From Apostichopus japonicus (taxonomy: Eukaryota; Echinodermata; Holothuroidea; Aspidochirotida; Stichopodidae), in assembly GCF_037975245.1 (NCBI RefSeq), contig NC_092571.1, positions 9,524,501-9,588,500 on the forward strand: 64,000 nt of DNA, given 5' to 3'. This document shows positions 3,000 to 24,080 of this stretch, piece by piece. The position numbers and the translations under genes were made by a program. The notes beneath the pieces are model-generated. The model made no database searches, was not told the origin of the DNA, and saw only the letters and a program-made list of their open reading frames with translations. Numbering within the stretch: position 1 is the stretch's first letter; each line of letters starts with the position of its first letter.

Positions 3000-5900
3000 T
3001 TAGGTTAAACTAACACCATATCTATTTCTAAAGTTATCAATTATACCAGTTCTGTGTATCATCTTTGACTGTTTTGCCTTTTTCATCTTTTTCTTTCTTT
3101 GAGGCAGTGGACGAAGGGCTGATTTCTTGCCCGACTGGTGTAGAGGCAACTGGTTTTCTCTCGGTATGGTCTGTTCCAGTTCAGCACATGCCAGTGTGAG
3201 TTGGGAGATGACATTTGACATGACATCAACATCAGAGGAGAGAAAAGAGAGATCCTGCAAAACCTTCAGTTTTTCTCTGAGGCACTTCTGGGTAGAATGG
3301 ATATACCGATTGCAGGTACTGGCTTCTTCACCACTGACGTCTGTCTCATCTTCCTGTTGGACAGGGCTCCCAGTACCAACTTCTTGATCATCTCTTAGGC
3401 AAGATTTGAACTGAACTTCCTTTGAAAGAAAACTCAAGTCCAGGTTAAAATATGCACTGTTTTTATACAGTGGACTCAGGCTGTTCCAGGTGGCATCACT
3501 GTGTGCAAATATTGCAAAGAGATGTTTGCATGGCATGAAGTTCTCCATAAATGCAGCACATTGACATTTGGGGAACGATTTTGAGTCCCCAAGGAACACT
3601 TCATACCATTGTAAGGAATTTTCACTTTTCACCTGAAAAATATTTTCACCAACCTTTTGGACATCCTTTGATTTGTAGTGAGTGGCCGCACTTATCTTTG
3701 TCATGCAGTGCTTAACAAAGGCTCTGGGTCGATCATGCAAAAATGCTGGCACTTGAGGGTTGTATGCCTTGTACTGGCTACTGAAGGCATAGTTTTTTCT
3801 TGTGTAGGACATCAGTTGATCTGGTATGAAGTCCAACACCAGAGTTTCAGCCAATGAAGAGACAGTGTTTGTAGTTGTCAGCTTTAGGTAGAACTGCTTC
3901 AGTGTTCTGTTAAGTGCTTCTACTCCATTGTTTGTGGTGACTGACACATTGAAGCCAGGCAGTGCATATGCTCTGCACCATCGCTGTTAAGTAAATGGGT
4001 AATGGTCATCCTTAAACTGTTCTGAAATGTGAACATTTACTGTGTCTTTCATGAAATTGCAATTCTCCTCATTTCATTGTTACTATTGTTGACAGTTTTA
4101 CCACAAAGTGCTTGTTGTTAGATCATATGCAACTTACAGAGTTCACAGAAGTTAAATTCATATGAAGTGGATAGACTATTAAAAGTATCACAAAACTGGA
4201 CTGTACTTTCCTGTAATTGTACTAAGGTTTCGAGTAGTACCAAGTGTAGCAGAACTAGCAAGCATTGAATTCGAGCTGGCTTGATTTAAACTTCAAAGTA
4301 GTTAGATATTAAAAGTTCAACTGAAATCATTATCAATCAAACACTGTTTCAGTCATTTACTTGTAAGCCTTAGCTACAGTAGAACCTTTGAAGACACTGA
4401 ACACTTGAGCATACATGTTATCTGTATGAATAATTATCAGGAAAGCTAATTAACGCAATGTATAGTTACTGTAAGGCCGTACCTATGTGGCATCCAATTT
4501 ATCTAACAGGGAATACATAAATTAGATAGTGAATTAAGGGTTACTGACAATGCACAAATTTTGTTTTATTGTAACAATGTCCTAATTAAAACTAGTCATC
4601 CTACATGCATGTCAATGTATGACACGAGTATAACTAGAAAGACAATGTTCTTATATTTATATTAGTTGATTCATAGCAAATATCTTGTATGTACCAGTTA
4701 TGTGAATAAAAGTTTTGGCAAAAATTGATACAACCTTACAGTTATTATGTAATATCTTAAATGGAATGATTATTTTTGTGAATGATTCTTGGGAGCTATA
4801 AATCACAAGTAAGAAGGAAAGCAAATAGCTGGATCTCATTTTGTAAGTATTGCATTAATTTTATGATGAAGCAATAACATACCTGACATATGCCAAGCCA
4901 TCTAGTCTCAGTGTATGTTTTCACTCTGATGTTTGAGGAGTACAACTTGCTTGAACGCAAAATGTGAATACCTTTGTCACATTTTTCTTTTTCTTTTGCT
5001 GTTGCAATATCCCTCAGCATTTTCAAGAGATGGTGTTGGTTGTCAGTGGTTAGTTGGTTTTTTCCTGTGGAATAAAAAAAATGTTTCATGATTAGTGTTA
5101 AATTGGTGTGGGAAACAACAAAGAAGTAGCCTTCTACTTAACTTAGGTTCTGTGAAAGTGCCAGCTGGTTCAAATCGAAAATGAACTATCAAAGCTGTGG
5201 AATCCTTCAGTGTTAACCTATAGCCCAAAACAGTCTTATTTACATACTGATAGTATGTGGTAAACAATGCTGGAAATGATAAAGCCAACTAGTATTGCCC
5301 TCACCATTTATGACATGTTCAATTCTAGAACAGAGTGGGTACATACTAGTAGAAAGTTGATAAGTAGGTTTGTGTTGCAGTCTAGTGCCTGTATTTGATG
5401 ATAAAAGTTAGATTGAAACCCACCTTCCCTGCACCAGCGGATCCAAGCTTGCTCTCTGTGAAAGCTGCAAACATACTTGTGAGCCTCTGGAAACACATCT
5501 TGAAGGGCCTGATACTCTGTTTCAGAATAGTCAATCATAAAAAATTGAGGTTTCCACTGAAGGTTCCACTCCTTGATGATTGAAAGGGCCTCTGCAATAT
5601 GTGCAGTCGTCTCACTCTCACAGATAAATGTTGCAACAGGTGTATACCCTACATTTGTCCTTACAACCATTAAGAATAAGGGGAGGGCATATTTAGTTGT
5701 ACGGTACGTGGCATCAAGCAGTACTAGTTCTCCATATCTCTCTAGTAGCATCTTCTGTTGCACTGTCTGGTGTATGAAGAGGAAAGTGTTTTTCCTTACA
5801 TATGGCTCATCACTATTATCATCTAAATCGTTGTCATCAGTTAGGGGAAAACATCTTTCTGTTAAAATTTGTGCCTCTCTGATAGGTTTTGACGCTTGTT

Positions 5901-8900
5901 CATGACTTTCCTCGCTCGTGCATTTCCGAAGGAAGAAGTTTGATAACTTTTCTTTTGCTTTCCAATCAGCAACTTTATTTTCCAGGTTTTCTTGGTCCAG
6001 TCCAGAAAATCTACCTGCAACTAATGCATGATGCACATGGTTTTGGATGGAATGGCAGCTTGGAAAATATGCTCTGTCATTTGATGTTGGCTTAACCTGA
6101 TTTGCTGGGCATAGTTCCGACTCCACAAATGTTTTAAGAACTCGCTTAATTAATGGCACTGATGTGATACCTAATGAGACATATTCATGTATTTTGTCCC
6201 TTACAGCTGCATCAATTGGTTTGGAAAAACCACTTTCAATGGACACTTTGTGATTTTTATGGGATTGGTGCAATGGTAGTTTGACATGGATTATCTGCTC
6301 TGGATTGGTATCAGCCTCTTTGGAGCGAATCGACTGGTGTAGTTTTTCCATTGTCTTCTGTTTTTCTCTTTGGCCAGCAGTTTGTGACAGTTTGAATGCA
6401 TTGTATCTGGAAGACAAATTTTGAAGCCATGGAGTTTTGAAGAGATTTCAAAGTAGTCTGAAAAGAGAGACCGCCATGCATACCAACCTAATGAGAACAG
6501 GCAACTATAAAGCAGGCACTAACTTAATCTCTCTAAAGAGAGCCTCAAAGAGGGAAAGGCCAGCCATGCAAATTCTGGAGGGTCATTCTAGCCTTAACAA
6601 ACAGGTTTTGATTATAAATAAGCACACATTGTGTTTCATTTTTAACTGCGAGCAACCCTCACAGTCATGAATTCATCAACTGAGTAAGAATTAGGTCATC
6701 AAATGGAGATAAGAGCTGAAAAATAATTATTTGATTTAGCAAGACTGTGAGGTTGATAGTCGAGAAATGGGGGACCTGGAGTTAACAGGCCACCTGACAG
6801 GGACCTTGTACTAGTGGTTGATGAGCCAGCTGACAAGATTTTAATGGATTTGTCTCAATTTCTATTTTTGTAATAAGTTACAAATACCCACTAAAATGCT
6901 CACATAAAGCAGCACCCCAACATACATTCTGCCATTGTTTTAGGTTTTGATGATAATCGTAACCTTTGCAATTATGATGGCGTATGTGTATTCGCGAGTG
7001 TGTGTGTTTGGGAAGCCCATCTTGTAAACATGATATCTCAAGAAGGGAAGGTCAGAGCACTTCATATTTGGTGTGTAGAAGTACCACATTAAGTACAAGA
7101 AGCCTATTGTATTTGGTAGAGATAAAGGTCATTTAATGTCACCATGGGTTAAATTGTGGAAACCTTGTATACAAAATATCACAAGAAGGGAAGCATAGGC
7201 AGACCTCATATTTGTGTTTGGAAAAACCACACTGAGTGCAACAGGCCTATTGTTTTTGATGAGGTCAAAGGTCATTTGCATTCATCAGAGGTCAATTGTT
7301 AAAAAACTTGTAAACATGATATCTCAATACTGGAACCTAGGGTAGATTTCATACTGGGTATGAATGTGTATAACATTGAGTAAGAGAAGCCTATCGATTT
7401 TGGTGGGGGCCAAAGGTTGTTTCGAGACAACACGTCAAATTGTGAAAGCCTTGTAAACATGACATTATCACATACCTTGTGATGTGTCTTATGTAGACTT
7501 TAGATGGACATCCAACTTTCCGGCTTTTCTGTACATGGAATCTCTTTCGGCTTGGTTGGCCATAATTGTGATCTGAGATCTGTTGAAAGTAAAAGAAATA
7601 AAACATATATAGTAAAAGGAGTCATTGAAGTGGTGGGAGGAGGGGGGGGGGGATACCGGTTTATACTTTCAAACATAACGTAGGGGTGAAGAATTCATAT
7701 GATATATGATAGGAAATTCCTCAGATAAACATGAGCTTATGATATGTTCCTCACATGGAACACAATACCTTACCAAACATTAATGCATTAAAGCTTCGAA
7801 TGCTTATAAATGATGGCTTATATTTGCCCCAAGAATGCCTTTGCTAAGGCTGCACCAGAGCCTAAAAATTTAAATTAGCTAAGGCTTTGATGGCTTAAAT
7901 TTGCATATAAGTATTCACTTTGAAGCTTTAAAAATGCATTCGCTCTGCAGCCTTAATGCTAGCATAAATTTGCTCAGAAACCTAAAATGAAGGCTTCATT
8001 AAAGCTTTGAATGCTTACAAATGATGGCTTATATTTGCCCCAAGAATGCCTTCGCTAAGGCTGCACCAGAACACATTACCTTTTTAGATGAGTGAGTGCT
8101 TTGTTAGGTAGCAAGTTGACAAAAAATGAGACTTGACAAAACTGGCTCTTATTTTATTTGTAAGGCAACAAACACACTGCATGGTTATGTTGGTGCTCAA
8201 CGTTTATTGCAGAACTTATTTTTTTGATGATGTTGTTGTTACTTACTTGCTGAGAGCAGGCAATCAAATGTCGCTCTTGTTTGATTTGATCAAAATTGAT
8301 ATGATGAAACAAACAGCTGTTTGGTTTAATTTGATGTTAAGAAAGTGAAATTGCAGATCAGCAGGATGTAAAATATTATGCCTGCTCTATTATATATCTC
8401 AATGTGGTGATAATGTCTAGCTGATTGACTTCTCTTTTCTGGTCTCAATCAGTATGCACAATGTGCACTGTACCTTGTGAACTCTGGTGCTAATAAGTTT
8501 CACCTTAACCTTAATATGCAATTGTGCATTCTACTAAATTTTCAGATAGCTATAGTTGACATATATATTTTAGTTTGTATACTGCAACAGCCAGGACCTG
8601 TATGTTTAGCTGCCAATTAAATCGTCGTTAGTGCTATCTCTACCCCACCACCTATTTCAAATTTTGGTTGTATTACTTTGTCAAAACATATATTCTTGCT
8701 TTTCTTGCAAGACAATATATTCCATATATTACCTGGTTTTCATTTGATCTTAAGTTTGTTTTTGTTTTTTAGGGGGGTTCTTTTATCTTCGATCTCAATG
8801 TCCAAGAACCAATGAAAGAATGGAAACTGTTGACAAACTACCTTCTTATAATTTAACAGTCCTTGCATGTTTTACTTTGGGCTTCTTTTTTTATTATAAA

Positions 8901-11989: not shown

Positions 11990-14290
11990 GAAAAATTCAC
12001 AAACAACAGAAATAAACTAACAGCCCTGCACATTAACGTATACAACTCCAAAAGCCTAAAACTATGTTCCTCATCATCGTGGTTGTCCAAGTTTGCCTTG
12101 GAGTTATCCAATGGAGTTGCAGAGACAACAAACTCAGGGAGAAAGTTCCATGTACTTACTAGTTGGTAAGAAAAATAGTTGAGACGTGTATTTGATTTGC
12201 AATGCTTTTTGGCAATCTTGTAGCTGTGCCCTCTGGTTTTGGCAGACTGATCAAAGGAAAACAATTTGCTACACTCAATATCTTCCAAACCATAAACAAT
12301 CTTATAAGTTTGAATGACAGTAGATCACCTCTCTTTCTGTTGCATTTGAATGTAGGTAACTTAAGTGCACGTAATCTGTCACAATAATCATAGTTATACA
12401 GACCAGGCACAAAACATGTAGCTCTGTGTTGAACACTCTCAATACTGCTTATGTCCTTTGTTAGATGTGGGAGCCAAATAACATTACAATATTTTAGATG
12501 TGGCCTCACAAGTGCTTTGTATGATAAGATAATAACTAAAGTAGCATTTACAGCTCGAAAGGCTAAATCAAACCAAGCATGCTGTTTGCTTTGTTCACCT
12601 TGGTAGAAATGTGCTTGCTAAAATTTTAGGAATCCTGGAATAGCACCCCCAGGTCTTTCTCTTCACTTACGCTTTGCAATAGATTGTATTTAGTGTCATT
12701 ATAACCAAGAAAGAAATAATGATGTTTTAGTATTGTTCCTTCCAAAATGCATAACATTAAATTTACAAATATTCAAGGAGAGTTGCCACACTTGAGACCA
12801 CTGTTGCAAGTTGTAAACATCATGTTGCAGGACTGCTTTATCATTGTCTAGGCTGACTCTAGAATAAATATTTGTAACATCAGCAAACATTCTTATGATA
12901 TTCTGCGCAACTTCTGGTAGGTCATTGATATAGATCAAGAACCACACTGTACCCAAAACACTCCCTTTTGGAACTCCACTGATGGGAAATTAGTTAATGC
13001 CTAATAATACGTTCCATACATTTGCCGACAACAGGGGTTAAGCTACCTGGTTGATAAAGTAGTTACAGTACATGGCTCAGATTTCTTTCCCTATTTAAAT
13101 GGGAACTACTGCAGCATAATTCCATGCTCTAGGAAGTCTTCCTATGCTTATAGTTGAATGAAAAATTCTTGTTAGTGGATCAACAAAAATGCTTGACATT
13201 TCCTTTAGAAGATGTGGTGGATGAATATTGTCTGGACCTGGTGATTTACTAGGATTTAATTTCTCAATTCCTTTGCTTACAATATCCTCAGTAATAGCAA
13301 TGTGGCTTAAAGTCTCAATAAATCCCCTATCAGCCAGCAATGGAACCTCACCCTGTTTTTCTTTGGTGAACACGCTGGTAAAATCAATCAGACTTGGTGG
13401 TAGAACCATCAGGCAAAATGAGATCACTTACAGATGTGGTAACTTAAGATTTGCTTCTAACATATTTCCAAAAGTGATTTGGGTCAGTCTATATTTTGGT
13501 GGCAACTAAGCCCTCATGAGACCAATTGGTGTCTTTAGCCCACAGAATTTTTTTTTCAAGCAATTTTAAAAAGTTCAAAATCTTTAATTTGCCTAGAATA
13601 CTTGTCATTTTGCCAAGCATGTTGTTTCCTCTTAACACTCTTTAGAGTTTCGGCAGTTATCCAAGTACTGTAGGCTTTGGATTATGGCTTGGATAATAGA
13701 CAGACATTGGAACGTATGCTTTTAACACTAGAATAATATTTCAGAGCAAATTCATCCCACATTGCATCAAGATTCTTTCCAAGGAACCTATCATCCCATT
13801 TGATATTACTCCATTCCTCTGAGAATTTAGCAAAATTACACTTATCGTACCTCCAAGATTCTTTCTTTACACCATAAAATTTGGAAACACTTTATAAAAT
13901 ATCAAAGACAATAACACAATGGTCGCTTTGCCAATTGGTGAAAAATTATCCACCTGCTGCATATCCTCTTCTTCCTTTGACAAAATTAAATCCTAAAGGT
14001 GTGGTTCATCGCTACAGGTACAGTACTTCGGAATCTCGATGGCTGATTTACTTGTTGAAAAATGTTCTCAATATGCAACTCTGAGTGAGATGTCACTCAG
14101 AAAGACCAATCAATACTTGGATAGTTGAAATCACCAACGAAAACAACAACACTAGCGTCAGATTCCACAGCTGTTTGTATCATTTTATTCAAAATTAAGG
14201 TCACACGCTCTTCTGGGTACTGTTATCGTTGGAGCCAGTAGTACACCAAGATGCATCACTATATAAACTATTTTTATTATAAACGTTTCG
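11990..14290 (-). pseudogene. Decayed LINE retrotransposon (endonuclease plus reverse transcriptase)
   Basis: Minus-strand segments in order match a non-LTR retrotransposon of the jockey/CR1-like kind. An EEP endonuclease piece with GDFNYPS..DW lies at about 14104-14150. Next comes the start of the reverse transcriptase with KLNPSKSPGPDNIHP (13095-13427). The active-site segment with LIYINDLP and MFADV follows at 12699-12956. Last is the conserved C-terminal region with RPHLKYCNVIW and LVSTWNFLPEFVV (11990-12509). Stops and frame changes separate the pieces. The catalytic box has lost its second Asp (FADV where FADD is expected, 12876-12887). If the 5' exon proposed at 11404 is right, the element sits in the first intron of the NPL/zinc-finger gene. 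Confidence 0.85.
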
Positions 14291-15159: not shown

Positions 15160-18100
15160 ATGATATGGGGTAAATGTTTCATAATTGCTGTACAATGGTG
15201 GGAGTAAAAACCCTGAAATATGTTCCATAATTATATGTAAATGACTGCAGGAGTGGCAGTCTGTAACCATTTTACAGTACATCGTAACTTCAAAGTGAAG
15301 GTTTTGCGAGAATAGAAATCAAAGCAATATTTTAGCTGAATGGAGTTAATGATATTGTAATAAGGAATGATAGGGTGTCATTGGACTAATATCTTCAGAC
15401 CCTTTCTTGGGTTCTGTGTGCATAATTACTGCATATATGTGTGTGACATGGAGAGATTCAGAGATTGCCTCAGTCAATGTACTGAGGGAGGGAGGTCAAC
15501 ACAAATCACCATTTGTGATGACCTTCCTCCCTCAGCCAGAAGCTTAGCTTGAATTAGTAACAAGTGTTTAAAGTAATTGCCATCAAATTTGCTCTTCTTT
15601 TAAAAAGTAACCACAGAACAGCTGCTGTTTTCATTGTTTTGATTTCATTATAAAATTCTTACTGCTGGTTGTTAGCATGTTTCCTAGATGCCTTCTCATG
15701 TAAATATACTGTATATTTATGATTGAAGACTTTCATAATTGATCGCTGCAGGCTATTTTCTGCAAAACAAGCAAAAACAAATAATTACTAGGACTTTTAA
15801 TTCTTCTTTCGTTCTATTTCATCAGGTAAAGTCCTTCATCCAGGGGAATCACTCACAGAAGTGGTTGACAGTGAAATTCATCTCTCAATGGCTTCCTTAG
15901 AATGCAGACCAAGGCTATCATCCAGTAATCTATAATACTGTACTTCCTTAAATGTTTAAATGTCGCAATGAATAGCAAATCTTATATGATTTTTAGCGGT
16001 AAGGGACCCAGATACGCAAGAGCCTAACCAAAGGCTTCTATTGTTCAGTGTCTTAATAATTCTATCGAATAACCCTCCTGGCAAAAATTCTTTGCGTTCC
16101 CTAAACTATATATGTATGTGGTCCATGTGCCACAAGTATTGAACGCCAAAACCGACAAAAATGCAGAAACAAATTATGTAAACCTAAGTCATTTATGTGA
16201 ATACAAATTTATCGCCACATAATGACCAAGAACAACTCAAGTCTTTATGTGGCAATATTAGCTCCTCCACATAATGACCAAGAACATTTTATGTATCATG
16301 GGATCCTAACACTACCGCATAATGACCGCCAATTTGAGTTGCTCTTGATGAACACATGTTGACAATATGTCGTACCTAGTCACTTGAACATTTTTCTGAC
16401 AGCATTGTCAACCAGCAGTTCAAAACCTCAATTCTTTTCTTAGACCAAATAATATACAAAACAATGGTTTGAACAGTACTCACCTTTGCCATATTAAAAT
16501 AAGTAATTTTATGATTATCGGATTCTGAGCAGCACAATCTCCTCCCCTCAACACTACCACTGACAGGAATTGTGATTTGTTCTGTTGGATGTAGTTTGTT
16601 TCTGACTGTATCAAATCTCTTTATAGTTTATAGCCTATTGCAGAGTAGGTTTTCAGTTGCATACTTTCAAACATCATTTGAGACCCTCATCTTGATTAAT
16701 TCTATATATACTGTACTTGTTTATTCTTGCAGAGAAAGACCTGACTGCCCATGTTATTCTCAGGACTCATACTGGCGAGTATCTGCTCTGCTCTTTGGGA
16801 TATGGACCAACACCGCAGCAGAATTTAGACCTGGTCCTTCAACCGCAGGAAGAAATCACATTTAGTGTGGAGGGATCAGGTACGGTCATGCAGCTATTGT
16901 TTTGACGATTGTCTGAAAATTGGGAGTAAATTTAAACAATTTTGTTAATTAAATATGTTTTAATAGGTTCAGATGACATCTCAAAGAATTCCCTCACTAT
17001 TGACCTGGAATTTTAGTAGTTTAGCTAAAAGTTTCCAGGCAAACTCTTTGGGAGGTTCTGACCCTCCACATGATTCAGTGTTTGGTTACAAAATGAAATC
17101 CCTCATTAAGGAATGTAGGGTTTGAGACTGGCAGTTAAGTGATTCTTGAAATTTGTGTGACCATTTTTAGACTATATAGCATATTTGTTTACCAAGTGGT
17201 ATGGTCCAGTGACTGAAGGCGATGGCTTAAGAAGCATGGACAAAAGTAATTTGGATTTTTTTCATCCAAGAGAAATCTACAGTCTTCCCTTCTGAAATAT
17301 TCATGCAAATTGTATAAGATCCAAAATTACCAAAAAGTGTAAATTAGGTAGGCTCCTGATGTGAAGTGAGAGTAATAAGCCATTCAGCTTCTAGAATAAC
17401 AGTCTTCCAGCATCGATTGTATTGGGATAGTGATTATTGTAATGATGGTGTCACATGTCTTGTACACAGTAAATCATTGTATGTTTAATACTGTTTTCAC
17501 ATGTTTGGCAAATTCATAACTGATAACAAAGTTTGACACTTTTCTGATTGGAATTTCTTCAATTTCACTTCCAGTGTGAATGTTTAATTTGGTTATATTT
17601 TGAATATGTTGTTTGAAGATATATATTGAAATTAAGTTGAGTGAAAATGATTCTAATGGTCTTGGCACTGATACCCCTAAAATTGAAAGATATCCCTTTG
17701 TTTTAATTTAAATTACTTTCTCTATCATAGGAGTTGTGTACCTGACAGGTTACACCATACCAACTACAGAACCAGTAAGTTACTATGGTGATACTGGATT
17801 TGATGAAGAAGCTATTGAAGACTGTGGAGAAGTCCCTCAAGATCAGGAAGATTTCCAGCAAGAGTGGGAAGTAGCTGCTTCAGGTTTGCTGGTTACTCTA
17901 TCTTTGGAAATTAACATTTAAAGTGACTATATGATGATGCCTCAAGTGCTAGATAGAGTACTCAACACTAGCAGTTTGATATTAATAGCTTTGAGAGAAT
18001 CTTGTGTTCCAAATGTTGTTTATATAATTAACATAATAAGAGTCAGGCAGTCCTTGCGATGAATTTGGTTCCATGAATTTATACTTCATTTTATCGCTCC

Positions 18101-21100
18101 TGCATGAAGATACTGATGAGTGCTCATGATAGTACAAGGTGTTAGGCACATATCTGGGGATGGAGTTATATCTCACACAGACTGGGGCTACATTCTATTA
18201 AAATTACTGGTTTATCAAACAAAGTGTAACATTATTTGAAAAAAAAAAAATCTGCTAGTGCCTGTTTTGGGATGACCTACCATCATCCTCTCATCTGTGT
18301 TGAACTTATCTGCTAAAATACCAAGTCCTCTAGATTTGATAAGTTCCAGTTCAAATGAACAACTTCAACAGAATGACAAATGTCTCTTCAGTGTTCTACC
18401 TTGATGATAACATTAAATTAAATACAAAGGTTTCACTGTATGCAAGAAAATATTCCAACTTGATTCCTTTCTTTGGCAACGGATGCACTAAACTGACATT
18501 AATATTCAGTAATGTGAGTTTGCCAGAGGCTATTGTTTTCTATTACTGGAAAGTACTACCTTTTAACATGTTACTTTATGAAGGCTTGAAGTTTTTAATA
18601 ATTATATTTTTATTCAGAGGGAACAGATGTCACTGTGAAGTCAGAAGCACAAAAAGAAGATGTTCCACAAACTTGTGGCCAAGGTACTTACTTTTACTGC
18701 ATAACACATTAAATCAGGGCAGTTTTAAGATCATACAAATACTTGTCAAAAGCTCACACGTCTTCAACTGAGTCTTAAATTCAACTTGCTGTCTATTACA
18801 AAACTTTTGCAGTATTTTACCGAAACTTTACTCTGATCTTTATTTCTAAATTTTTCAAACAATTGTAGTATGAGATTTGTTTTATGATTTTAAAATGTAC
18901 TTTCTGTTGTACTGTTATGCTCTCAGAGACTTGCAACACAAAACAAAATAAGGAAAATGAAAGGGATATCAAAATAGAAACAAAGAATAACAAATAAATG
19001 GGACATTCTTGATAGGGTTGTTGTTGACCTCCTTGAAGCGGACTTGCCTATTAATACTTTGTAACGATCAGACTGACTGATCAGACTGACTGACTGACTG
19101 ATCAGACTGACTGACTGATCAGACTGACTGAGTGACTGACTGACTGATCAGACTGACTGACTGACTGACTGATCAGACTGAGTGACAGACTGACTGACTG
19201 ATCAGACTGACTGACTGATCAGACTGACTGACTGATCAGACTGACTGACTGATCAGACTGACTGAGTGACTGACTGACTGAGCAGACTGACTGATCAGAC
19301 TGACTGAGTGACTGACTGATCAGACTGACTGAGTGATCAGACTGACTGAGGGATCAGACTGACTGACTGATCAGACTGACTGATCAGACTGAGTGACTGA
19401 TCAGACTTAGTGACTGACTGACTGATCAGACTGAGTGACTGACTGAGTGACAGACAGACTGACTGAGCAAACTGACTGACTGATCAGACTGACTGACTGA
19501 TCAGGCTGAGTGACTGATCAGACTGAGTGACTGACTGACTGATCAGACTGAGTGACTGACTGATCAGACTGACTCAGTGACTGACTGATCAGACTGACTG
19601 ATCAGACTGACTGAGTGATCAGACTGACTGACTGATCAGACTGACTGAGTGACTGATCAGACTGAGCAAAGGTCATGGTAGCTGTCTGAGTTTATTCTGC
19701 CAAACATTAGGATGCTATTAAGTTCACAAAATCCCATAGCAAGTCAGTTCATTGGCTTGACTGCAAATACTTTACCATAAATTAAAAGAAGAGATGTGAA
19801 AACCCTGGACTTTGATAGCTTTAAAAGCTTTCCAGTCCTTGGTGAATAAGCAATATTAGGAATACAATCAAAGTAGTTTTCCCTGAGTCTCTTTAATATC
19901 TTTATATCTATTGGTAGATATGCTCTGTTCATTTCTTTGTAGTTTTTATTATATTAGCTCCAATCTGATGGTATGAAGCACTTTCTTTTAAGACAAAGAC
20001 AAGACACCAAAAAGCATGAAAATAATGACATTGTTATGAAATTTGCCTAAATTAAAACAGAAAATATAAGATTAGGCCTAAAATTGTTTGGTTTGCAAAT
20101 GGAGTACTAAGGGATTGTCTCAACTATGTGGGACACAAAATAACACATAACAAAGTATTCAGTCATGCAGTAGTAACAAGCATGGTTTATATCCATATAA
20201 ATGTCTTACTAGTTAGGTTAGGTTGGCATATTACATAGCTTGCTCAAAGTCACACAAGTGAAACCCTGACCATCTTTGAAGTATGTATATTGATATGTAT
20301 TTGAAGAATGTATAGATATGTATTTGAAGTATGTATACATAAGTTTATATATATATAAATATGTCTTTGAAGTATGCATAGATATGTATAGATATTTATT
20401 TGAAGTATGCATACATGTATATATATGTATTTGAAGTATGTATCTAGATATGTATTTGAAGTATGTATAGATATGTATTTGAAATATGTATAGACATGTA
20501 ATTGAAGTATGTATAGATAAGTATTTGACGTATGTATAGATATGTATTTGAAGTATGTATAGATAGGTATTGAAGAATGTATACATATGTATTTGACGTA
20601 AGTATAGATATGTATTTGAAGTATGTATAGATATGTAATTGAAGAATGCATAGATATGTATTTGACGTAAGTATAGATATGTATTTGACGTAAGTATAGA
20701 TATGTATTTGACGTAAGTATAGATATGTAATTGAAGTATGTATAGATAAGTATTTGACGTAAGTATAGATATGTATTTGAAGTATGTATAGATATGTAAT
20801 TGAAGAATGCATAGATATGTATTTGACGTAAGTATAGATATGTATTTGACGTAAGTATAGATATGTATTTGACGTAAGTATAGATATGTAATTGAAGTAT
20901 GTATAGATAAGTATTTGACGTAAGTATAGATATGTCTTTGAAGTATGCATAGAACTGCAAACAACTTTGATACTGCAGCTTCTTTGGTCTTCACTGCTAC
21001 TTGTATATACTCACAGAATACTGCATCTGACCTACTGTATATTAGCGGTTACTTATTTTATATCTTTTCGATGCTTTTTTCAATTGATGTGTCTGTTTGT

Positions 21101-23637
21101 ATGTGTGTGACATTCTGGTTGTCAAGACATATTTATGGTTTCATTTACCTGTCACAGTAGGAGAAGTCCACTCTGCTCCAACAGAGGCCAACGAGGACAA
21201 TTTAAATTACCAGAACGAACAGATGGAAAGTTCTGACAGGCTGTCATCTCAAGGAGGTGAGGGAACTCTATCAACTCATTGTTAAATGTTTTGACTTGTG
21301 CATCAGCAGCTTTAGTCTGTTTCTCTCGAACAGAGACTGGAACATTAAGTACTTGATGAAATACACACATATGACAGATTATTTGGTTAAGCAGAAGATA
21401 TTAGACATATTATATCCTATATTTTGCTTACCTTCAAAATTACATTTCTAAAACGACAGACCATTCATATGCTATATAGCCTTATGCTATAAGTTTGTCT
21501 TCTTACTAGAACACTTTTGTTTTACAGAAGAGAAACAATCATTATCATTCTGTGTGTTTTAAAGAACTTTTCAAGAATTCTGTTTTTCCACGTCAAGTTT
21601 GTTTGCTAGGCTTCCATCTTTGCAGCTCAGTGTATTGGATATACATATAGTCCATATTCAAGTAAAAGAAAACATGGGCTCTGATATTTGTTTTTCATGA
21701 AAGTCATTTATGGAAAATTTGATTGAATATAACATGTATGTGAACAAATAAAAATGATATAGAATATAACTTAGATGAAGATATCGAAATTCTCAAGATT
21801 GAATTACAGTACATTACTAGTGTTCCTGATTCCAGAGATAATAGAATTTATAAAAGAATTTCAGGATGTCTTTAATATCTCTAGCTCACAAATATAACTT
21901 TTGAGGATTTTTGAGGACTTTGGGTCTTGCTCCTTTCAATGTTGTGGAACCTGTGGTTTGGAAAATGTAAGTGTTGTACATTGGCATGATTCAGAAGTAA
22001 ATAAAATTGAAAGTCTTTCATTTCACCAAATATGGAAATATGCAACCAATCTTGATAAATTGATTATGCTGTATTAAAATACAAAAAATAAACAACATGG
22101 GATATGGAGTTAGGAGAACAGGTGGGCAAGGATGGGGGTGGGGGATATGTTTAATGGGTAAGTATGTAAACCTGTAGAGCAATTAAATACCATTTGCACT
22201 TAAATTATAGGAGTATTGCAGCTAGCTGTTTTATGTAGCAACTATCTGAATGTATGAGCCCATGGTTCAGTAAAGAAACTGCTTGTTATGTCCAAAGATA
22301 AATTCTTGCTTAGTAGTTGCCTCATGCATTTCAAGTTGTCCATCTATAACCATCCAGTGATTGTCATGTTTTTTAGCCATTCATCAGTGTGATGCTATTT
22401 TTACTATCTTCTCTTTTCTTTAACATACTTTCACTTCATCTCAAATGTCTTGTTATTGTATGTGTTACTGTTGTTATTGTATTTGTTGCTGTTGTTATTG
22501 TATGTGTTACTGTTGTTATTGTATTTGTTACTGTTGTTATTGTATTTGTTGCTGTTGTTATTGTATTTGTTACTGTTGTTATTGTATTTGTTGCTGTTGT
22601 TATTGTATTTGTTACTGTTGTTATTGTATTTGTTGCTGTTGTTATTTTTTAACTTCTCTCTCACTCTGTCTGTCTGAAATGTTTACTTTTCTTTCATCTG
22701 AATTGTTGTCAGTGTATATTACTGTATTAATATTTATCCAAATCAACTGTTGTTTGGATATCACCATATGTGTTATACAACATGTATGCATTTCCTTTGT
22801 TTTTCAATGATATCGTTCTTTGTTTTCTCATTCTTAGATGAGATAGCTGTAGTTCAACTTGATGATGAAGAAGATGAAGCTTTCACTGCTGTCAAATGGA
22901 GGTTAAGTGAATCTACAATGACTGGTCACCAACAGGAAGGACAGTCCCAGCAAGCAATGCAGAAATGTCTTGCATGTCCAAATCTGATTCCATTCAGAGG
23001 ACAATTTGAGGACAATGAAGGACAGTTGTCTTCCAATATTGTCCTTCATTGTAAGAGCTGTTTACAAAGATTACAAGGCAGTGGAGGGCACCAAACATTA
23101 TCACCAAGGTATAATAAGCCAGCGCAGGATCAAATGGGAGCCAACAGAAGGAAACGTCAGTCTTGGAAGTCGTCTTATTCTGTTCCGCAGAACTCACAGA
23201 CTGGAAGGGTGTATGGAACTGACCAACGAGGTGCTGGAAATGTCAGTTATCAACTTCCTGATGAAAGACAGCATAGGACAAACAAAGACAAGCTTTGTAG
23301 TTACTATTGTTCATACTGCAGCAAAGGTTTCTCTTCCTCGGCAGGTCTGAAGGTACATGAGCGAATGCATACAGGAGAGAAACCATATAAATGTCGTTTC
23401 TGTCCAAAGGCGTTTACTCAGTGCACAAATTGGAAGAGTCATGAGAAAACACACACAGGAGAAAAGCCGCATAAATGCTCTTACTGCGAGAAAACTTTCA
23501 TTCGTACAGATGCCATGAAAAGTCATGAGAGAACTCATACAGGAGAGAAACCCTATCGTTGTCAGAACTGTCCCAGAGCCTTTGGGCAGAGGTCAATGTT
23601 GAAGAAGCATGAACTCCTTCATCATTTTGATTTATGA
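15160..23637 (+). CDS. Nucleoplasmin-like domain fused to four C2H2 zinc fingers, 7 coding exons
   Basis: Exons are 15160-15169, 15826-15924, 16733-16879, 17731-17883, 18618-18683, 21158-21256 and 22838-23637. They total 1374 nt, or 457 residues. Every junction is GT-AG and every intron is phase 1. Residues 1 to about 100 match the nucleoplasmin-like (NPL) domain at the N-terminus of FKBP39-type nuclear immunophilins: MIWGKVLHPGE at the start, EIHLSMASLE, then LDLVLQPQEEITFSVEGSG and VYLTGY. An acidic tract follows (about 105-132), as in nucleoplasmins. Exon 7 carries another acidic run (LDDEEDE) and a CxxC...CxxC module starting near Cys235. A basic stretch (NRRKRQ) is next. Four classic C2H2 fingers with TGEKP linkers span 347-374, 375-402, 403-430 and 431-453. 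No FKBP domain is present. The likely role is nuclear: histone binding plus sequence-specific DNA binding. Plant HD2 proteins have a comparable NPL-acidic-C2H2 layout. Exon 6 could start three bases later. Confidence 0.85.
19060..19670. repeat. GACT/TGATCA simple-sequence array in intron 5 of the NPL/zinc-finger gene
   Basis: About 600 bp are built from GACT repeats interrupted regularly by TGATCA, giving units such as TGATCAGACTGACTGAC with occasional GAGTGAC variants. The array is palindrome-rich because TGATCA recurs throughout. It lies in the longest intron of the gene (18684-21157). Confidence 0.95.
20270..20950. repeat. About 23-bp minisatellite, intron 5
   Basis: The unit is close to GTATAGATATGTATTTGACG followed by TAA. 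It varies at one or two sites (GACGTAA versus GAAGTAT) and is repeated about 28 times. Because the unit length is not a multiple of three and lacks stops on the minus strand, all three minus frames stay open for 500-780 bases; these are not genes. The array ends about 210 bp before exon 6. Confidence 0.95.
22440..22645. repeat. 21-bp minisatellite, intron 6 of the NPL/zinc-finger gene
   Basis: About nine to ten copies of TTGTTATTGTATTTGTTRCTG alternate between GCT and ACT variants. The unit is a multiple of three, which keeps frames open on both strands. It lies about 190 bp before the last exon (22838). Confidence 0.9.
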
Positions 23638-23744: not shown

Positions 23745-24080
23745 GTAATAAACTTGAGGACTTGGTTGTACACCTGCAAACTTGAGGACGTAGTTGTACA
23801 CCTGAAAACTTGAGGACTTGCTTGTACATCTGCAAACTTGAGGACTTGGTTGTACATCTTAAAACTTGAGGACTTGGTTGTACACCTGCAAACTTGAGGA
23901 CTTGGTTGTACACCTGAAAACTTGGTTGTACATCTGCAAACTTGAGGACTTGGTTGTACACCTGAAAAACTTGAGGACTTGGTTGTACATCTGCAAACTT
24001 TAGGACTTGGTTGTACACCTGAAAACTTGAGAACATGGTTGTACACCTGCAAACTTGAGGACTTGGTTGTACATCTGCCG
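23745..24080. repeat. 28-bp minisatellite in the probable 3' UTR
   Basis: About eleven copies of a unit beginning CTTGAGGACTTGGTTGTACA and ending CCTGCAAA. The variants alternate CACCTG with CATCTG and GCAAA with AAAA, and one or two units are shortened. The array starts about 110 bp after the stop codon, so it is probably transcribed as part of the mRNA. Confidence 0.95.

Follow-up and report, generated by a model that had tools for sequence, protein, structure and literature searches.

A nucleoplasmin-like head joined to C2H2 zinc fingers in a sea cucumber genome: one of about 29 heads, some followed by arrays of tail exons

What kind of gene joins a nucleoplasmin-like (NPL) domain, a head of histone-chaperone type, to C2H2 zinc fingers in an animal genome, and does it stand alone? 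The gene in question lies in a stretch of 64,000 nucleotides of Apostichopus japonicus DNA (C11:9524501-9588500 of genome assembly G000), which we call the window; C-labels denote contigs and L-labels the stretches read around other loci. A first-pass annotation of the window had described the gene on its own. We find that it belongs to a family with about 29 NPL heads, arrays of C2H2 tail exons lying behind some of them. The finding exceeds a claim about a single gene; the earlier interpretation, taken as a whole, is partly supported.

Structure and constraint of the window gene

The window gene occupies 15160-23637 on the forward strand, and its seven exons form a single open frame (457 codons and a stop), as the first-pass annotation had proposed. 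All six introns are GT-AG and all six are phase 1. With the other exons held fixed, six candidate donors (GT or GC) were tried for exon 2, and the frame stayed open to the end with the donor at 15924 only. The parts of the gene, in window coordinates, are these:

15160..15169, + strand: exon 1, NPL start (MIW and the first base of G), with a phase-1 donor; present in the paralogue
15826..15924, + strand: exon 2, N-terminal strands of the NPL domain, including H22-x-S24
16733..16879, + strand: exon 3, NPL core (EYLLCSL..QQNLDL..EEITFSVEG)
17731..17883, + strand: exon 4, final NPL strand (GVVYLTGYT), after which the acidic linker begins
18618..18683, + strand: exon 5, acidic linker
21158..21256, + strand: exon 6, acidic linker
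22838..23637, + strand: exon 7, the tail exon, with the end of the acidic linker (QLDDEEDEAF), a basic stretch (NRRKRQ), four C2H2 fingers and the stop
23308..23625, + strand: the four C2H2 fingers, starting at 23308, 23392, 23476 and 23560

Running Pfam on the 457-residue product returned both of the domains expected of it: NPL (PF17800) at residues 2-95, within the first hundred residues where the head had been placed and over the full length of the profile (1-94; E 3.4e-18, 66.6 bits against a curated cut-off of 23.4), and zf-C2H2 in four stretches (E 3.1e-16). The acidic tract described between head and fingers is also there, with 35 acidic and 5 basic residues at positions 97-225 and a net charge of about -30 over this linker of 129 residues; in residues 293-346 the count is 4 acidic and 11 basic. 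The fingers had been called four and TGEKP-linked, which needs a small correction, in that the fingers are four and the TGEKP linkers between them three. As stated before, there is no FKBP domain (no Pfam match at E up to 1), and the order of the Pfam domains agrees with the plant HD2-like succession of NPL, acidic stretch and C2H2 that had been suggested. A pattern search of both strands found no C2H2 motif elsewhere in the 64 kb, and the window gene therefore has one tail. An alignment read by eye places the window protein's H22, S24 and D69 at the pore residues His24, Ser26 and Asp62 of FKBP39, and its V71 at FKBP39 Asn64.

A second full copy of the gene lies about 3.28 Mb away on the same contig (C11:6255445-6266200, read as L016 and L037). 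This paralogue retains all seven exons and their splice sites and has an insertion of 2.63 kb in intron 2. The two coding sequences differ at 23 of 1,374 bases, 18 of the differences being silent and 5 changing an amino acid (nonsynonymous divergence, dN, 0.0046; synonymous divergence, dS, 0.066). A single difference, silent, falls in the NPL part and seven, all silent, in the fingers, while the five amino-acid changes are all in the linker. Against a null in which 75% of random changes alter the amino acid, the chance of five or fewer such changes among 23 is 1.3e-7 and that of none among the seven in the fingers 6e-5, the one difference in the NPL part being too few to test. With differences that are mostly silent, both halves therefore look translated and constrained, and the substitution pattern points clearly to purifying selection on the window gene. 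The duplication extends into the downstream DNA (752 of 1,001 bases at 91%); an assembly artefact is an unlikely source of the second copy because the copies diverge outside the exons (for example, 91% over 3.4 kb, partly repeats). Orphan copies of exon 2 lie on the minus strand near both gene copies, at C11:6185633-6185725 and C11:9435129-9435221 (94% protein identity, 31 residues). Tandem repeats occur in intron 5, in intron 6 and 3' of the gene (19066-19665, 20275-20953, 22450-22646 and 23750-24078, with units of 17, 23, 21 and 28 bases).

NPL heads and C2H2 tail exons across the genome

Searching the assembly with the NPL Pfam model gave 32 exon matches that group into 30 loci, and a single family protein of 49 amino acids used as the query gave the same 30. 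One locus, on C2, is an NPL-FKBP gene: its linker is acidic and rich in lysine, and two FKBP exon matches lie 5.6-7.2 kb further downstream; the remaining 29 heads include the window gene, and 11 of them lie on contig C1, which makes up 3.2% of the assembly. A separate nucleoplasmin gene on C5 matches another Pfam family, PF03066. The core NPL exon (exon 3 of the window gene) ends in a phase-1 donor at every one of the 30 loci. In 28 the donor sits at one and the same codon, and in L014 and L033 it is shifted by one and two deleted codons. A profile search recovered a homologue of exon 2 at 19 of the 30 loci, of which 14 were seeds of the profile and five are independent matches. Upstream of the other members, the exon-1 pattern ATG-xxx-TGGGGT turned up once, at position 298 of L006; L001-L004 showed no match, and neither did the upstream DNA read at the remaining loci (roughly 1 kb, and 1.5 kb for the FKBP gene).

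We considered the window gene as an FKBP relative that had lost its tail and set this aside: nothing in the protein matches FKBP, the NPL-FKBP gene lies on another contig, C2, and a genome search with the FKBP profile lists no FKBP exon on C11. In an NPL tree, 4 of 29 inner branches are well supported, and heads that have a recognised tail are scattered among those that lack one; a tree so poorly resolved does not settle an origin of the family from NPL-FKBP, which is neither shown nor excluded. The window-type head is probably either a descendant of the NPL-FKBP head or shares an ancestor with it.

For the 28 heads other than that of the window gene, the sequence read extends 6.5-11.4 kb downstream, counted from where the NPL match begins. 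By read sequence, a same-strand C2H2 exon follows 16 of them, which with the window gene makes 17 of 29; a position table adds same-strand C2H2 open reading frames (ORFs) behind L025, L012, L011 and L009, for a total of 21 of 29. The L025 tail is 96% identical to that of L024. One fixed C2H2 pattern, applied to the 28 stretches, matched 61 times on the strand of the head and once on the opposite strand, in an ORF of L013 that we took as unrelated. One of the 61, in L011, looked spurious and was left out of the tail count, and a short match in L026 to a looser pattern was dropped. Of nine tail exons run against Pfam, all but the first tail of L008 exceed the zf-C2H2 cut-off, and that one exceeds the cut-off of zf-met. 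The number of fingers in the other members read ranges from 2 to 11 by a loose pattern. We had regarded heads without a tail within 6-11 kb as a separate class, an idea weakened when L025, L012, L009 and L011 proved to have C2H2 ORFs at downstream distances of 9-22 kb. A Cys-rich ORF that is not C2H2 (CACC...CFMCHKMF) lies 3' of the NPL head of L026 (L026 and L047, joined position 8171-8648) and is perhaps another kind of tail.

The tail exons share the splice phase of the heads. In 22 of them we scored acceptors by the pyrimidines preceding every AG from the start of the open frame to the first finger, and the best-scoring acceptor was phase 1 in 21 (p 1.4e-9 against an expectation of one third, for copies that are not independent); an earlier, stricter filter gave a phase-1 candidate in 20 of the 22, the two without being L028 and L033. 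With phase-1 introns throughout, heads and C2H2 tail exons are therefore recombinable with the frame intact, and the genome may have used this modularity to build its roughly 29 heads.

Behind six heads the C2H2 ORFs form arrays, with at least 44 tails in all. The largest follows L007 (C11:3458244, minus strand): at least 23 C2H2 ORFs of 153-232 amino acids, all on the minus strand, spread over 65 kb (3382901-3448480), several of them about 1.3 kb apart. The tails listed behind the other five number at least eight for L012 (+), five for L011 (+), three each for L009 (-) and L013 (-), and two for L008 (-). Among the matches listed, none of the six array intervals contains a C2H2 ORF on the opposite strand; tandem copies keep their strand, so these are not independent events. 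Past the head L018 (C1:6110150) a C2H2 ORF lies on the other strand. Eight array tails were read, namely the first of L007 together with L051-L053, two of L013 and two of L008. A layout of one head followed by several putative tails, those read having a phase-1 acceptor candidate, is seen at L007 (at least 23 listed, four read), L013 (at least three, two read) and L008 (at least two, both read), and not at the window gene. A dense cluster of long, multi-finger C2H2 ORFs also occupies C17:1380856-1777615, a contig on which the NPL search lists no head.

Weighing the readings

In our judgement the window gene probably encodes a nuclear, sequence-directed chromatin factor with a putative ring head, an acidic linker and DNA-binding fingers, and the tail arrays of its relatives would be lola-like. 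The NPL head (exons 1-4) would most likely form a ring, as other NPL domains do; the acidic linker would be suited to binding basic proteins such as histones; and the four fingers of the single tail exon would bind DNA. Ring and fingers are predicted because of family membership; the handling of histones is inferred. A ring of NPL heads, each with its fingers, would therefore display about five finger sets, held on flexible acidic arms, as a chromatin factor of high avidity that is directed by DNA sequence. In-place duplication of the tail exon appears to have occurred at several loci, giving a lola-like arrangement of one head and many possible tails.

Several points weigh against this reading. 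Firstly, the window gene, confirmed here as a real gene with head, acidic linker and fingers, is known from genomic sequence alone. Secondly, 8 of the 29 heads have no recognised C2H2 exon in the stretch read (L014, L019, L020, L022, L023, L026 and L034, ~10.5 kb read, and L021, 6.6 kb). Thirdly, the first tail of L007 is the exception to the phase rule, its best acceptor being phase 2 and its phase-1 candidate second; for most array tails we have only a position and an ORF length; and the arrays of L012, L011 and L009 are known by position only, with the first listed tail 12-22 kb from the head. Fourthly, the head of FKBP39 is, in one account, reportedly a tetramer (PMC5225439), and solved NPL structures match the window head weakly (plant HDT2, the best match in the PDB, at E 0.0018 and Drosophila FKBP39 at E 0.9). 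Finally, the pore His is replaced in several members, by R in L007 and L019, by Q in L008, L011 and L012 and by C in L028, and because of these losses the chemistry of the pore may vary across the family.

The lost pore His favours the strongest competing explanation, in which the NPL head is a multimerisation device only and the protein an ordinary high-avidity C2H2 transcription factor, comparable to the BTB-zinc finger factors and without chaperone activity. Insect Tramtrack-type BTB heads serve in just this way, as hexamers (PMC11426971). The acidic linker speaks against it, since it resembles the acidic stretches that follow NPL domains in chaperones (PMC4414354), and we regard a purely multimerising head as a real possibility, albeit the less probable one.

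For the arrays, another explanation is that they are clusters of independent zinc finger genes, each NPL head using the nearest tail or none. It draws some probability from the distances of 12-22 kb between head and first listed tail at L009, L011 and L012, and from in-frame Met codons before the fingers in L051 and L052. Against it, a phase-1 acceptor candidate is present in all eight array tails read, and is the best-scoring one in seven; the two tail ORFs of L008 are only 444 bases apart; L012 and L009 are heads in convergent orientation, and between 7180299 and 7219102 the listed tails change from one strand to the other; and the searches with the NPL Pfam model and with the single protein place no NPL exon inside the arrays. 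L052 and L053 are instructive here. Their introns can no longer be aligned except for about 50 bases at the acceptor, and L053 has no Met in its first ~60 codons, yet over the 60 aligned codons before its first Met dN is 0.36 and dS 0.95 (in the fingers, dN is 0.27 and dS 3.9, which is saturated). Because the introns have diverged while the codons before the Met stay constrained, L052 and L053 have the look of exons dependent on a phase-1 donor further upstream, and the NPL heads are candidates to offer such a donor to the array tails. We consider clusters of independent genes unlikely.

More doubtful again is the idea that the family is a KRAB-like system of genome defence engaged in an arms race with transposons. 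The survey in PMC10547256 finds that the number of zinc finger (ZNF) genes varies in step with transposons across animals and that the motifs predicted for sea urchin ZNFs are enriched in transposons, and in one pair of array tails the DNA-contact residues do differ more often than the rest of the fingers (8/12 versus 13/51, one-sided p 0.0099). The other five pairs give p values of 0.06-0.36, and with one pair in six standing out we dropped diversifying selection on finger contacts as a claim; in the window pair, moreover, the fingers are without amino-acid change. Least credible by far is that the window locus holds two adjacent genes, one NPL-only and one C2H2, sharing a frame by chance, for although exons 5 and 6 are short, introns 5 and 6 carry long tandem repeats and the splicing is a reading of the genome, we reject it on phase (the best exon-7 acceptor is phase 1 and matches the phase-1 donors of exons 1-6), on paralogue constraint (both halves retained, with all seven exons, their splice sites and a low dN) and on recurrence (same-strand C2H2 exons at 21 of 29 heads and one opposite-strand pattern match in 28 stretches).

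Other features of the window and the assembly are recorded here for completeness. On the minus strand of the window, ORFs at 12162-13427 resemble reverse transcriptase remnants, and long ORFs at 3003-6447 have a SWIM-like Cys/His motif and are MULE-type-transposase-like (both by eye). Gene order on the mitochondrial contig C35 is COX1-trnR-ND4L-COX2-trnK-ATP8, with the tRNAs called by ARAGORN and the protein genes identified by eye, and its COX1 has AAA codons at positions that we take to be conserved Asn; both this order and this code are echinoderm ones. Fragmented COX1 matches on a second contig (C29:14745-31219) are perhaps a nuclear or misassembled mitochondrial copy.

Known head-and-finger systems and the place of this family

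According to PMC4414354, NPL domains are pentameric in FKBP39, in yeast Fpr4 and in plant HD2 (there as a dimer of pentamers) and are followed by acidic stretches; the paper sorts NPL proteins into three architectures, namely NPL-FKBP, nucleoplasmin and the HD-tuins, which have a C-terminal C2H2 finger. The window gene is close to the plant HD2/HDT proteins, which share its N-terminal NPL domain, acidic stretch and C-terminal C2H2 and include the HDT2 that best matches its head; they are proteins of plants with one C-terminal finger (PMC4414354), whereas the window gene has four TGEKP-linked fingers, an animal genome and modular phase-1 exons. With NPL-FKBP proteins (FKBP39/46) it shares the NPL domain family and, in the NPL-FKBP gene of this genome, the phases of the NPL exons, but it ends in C2H2 fingers, and FKBP exons lie near 1 of the 30 NPL loci. 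Nucleoplasmin/NPM has a related fold and an acidic tail (PMC4414354); the gene for it in this genome, on C5, belongs to a different Pfam family.

Among zinc finger genes, the closest parallel to the arrays is Drosophila lola and mod(mdg4), where a common oligomerising head is combined with many 3' zinc finger tail exons. According to PMC11426971 and PMC4667647, 17 of 20 lola isoforms have different C2H2 tails, and the BTB heads of lola and mod(mdg4) are of the hexamer-forming type. Here NPL takes the place of BTB, the animal is an echinoderm, the layout is deduced from the assembly and the window gene has one tail. The ZAD-, KRAB- and FiNZ-ZNF families resemble the present one as lineage-specific expansions of a head domain with C2H2 fingers (PMC10547256) and differ from it in that the head here is a domain of histone-chaperone type.

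We found no published animal NPL-C2H2 family in the searchable literature, a scope that leaves subscription papers and database-only annotations outside; such proteins may already carry automatic database annotation. PF17800 came up in three papers, and by their titles all three concern plant histone deacetylases or acetylation enzymes. Term searches do not return the word nucleoplasmin in the accessible text of the ZNF survey that includes sea urchin (PMC10547256), nor in that of the Holothuria glaberrima genome preprint, which counts 167 zf-C2H2 genes in that sea cucumber (PMC13228809). An A. japonicus gene named 'Nucleoplasmin-like protein ANO39, partial' is tabled in a study of association with papilla number (PMC12784826), the accessible part of which leaves unstated whether it is a nucleoplasmin or an NPL-C2H2 protein.

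The known heads of animal C2H2 families form a short list of KRAB, SCAN, BTB, ZAD and FiNZ, to which a ring head would add one, maybe one that acts on nucleosomes. A C2H2 head of histone-chaperone type would also connect the biology of plant HD2 with that of animal NPL proteins, and, if the tails are alternatively spliced, the principle of lola and mod(mdg4) would have arisen again in deuterostomes. We suggest tentatively, as a prospect that falls a little short of probable, that an echinoderm lineage made a ring domain of histone-chaperone type the shared head of a zinc finger system that works combinatorially. If this is true, rings of mixed composition could combine unlike sets of fingers, recognising composite DNA addresses and handling histones at once.

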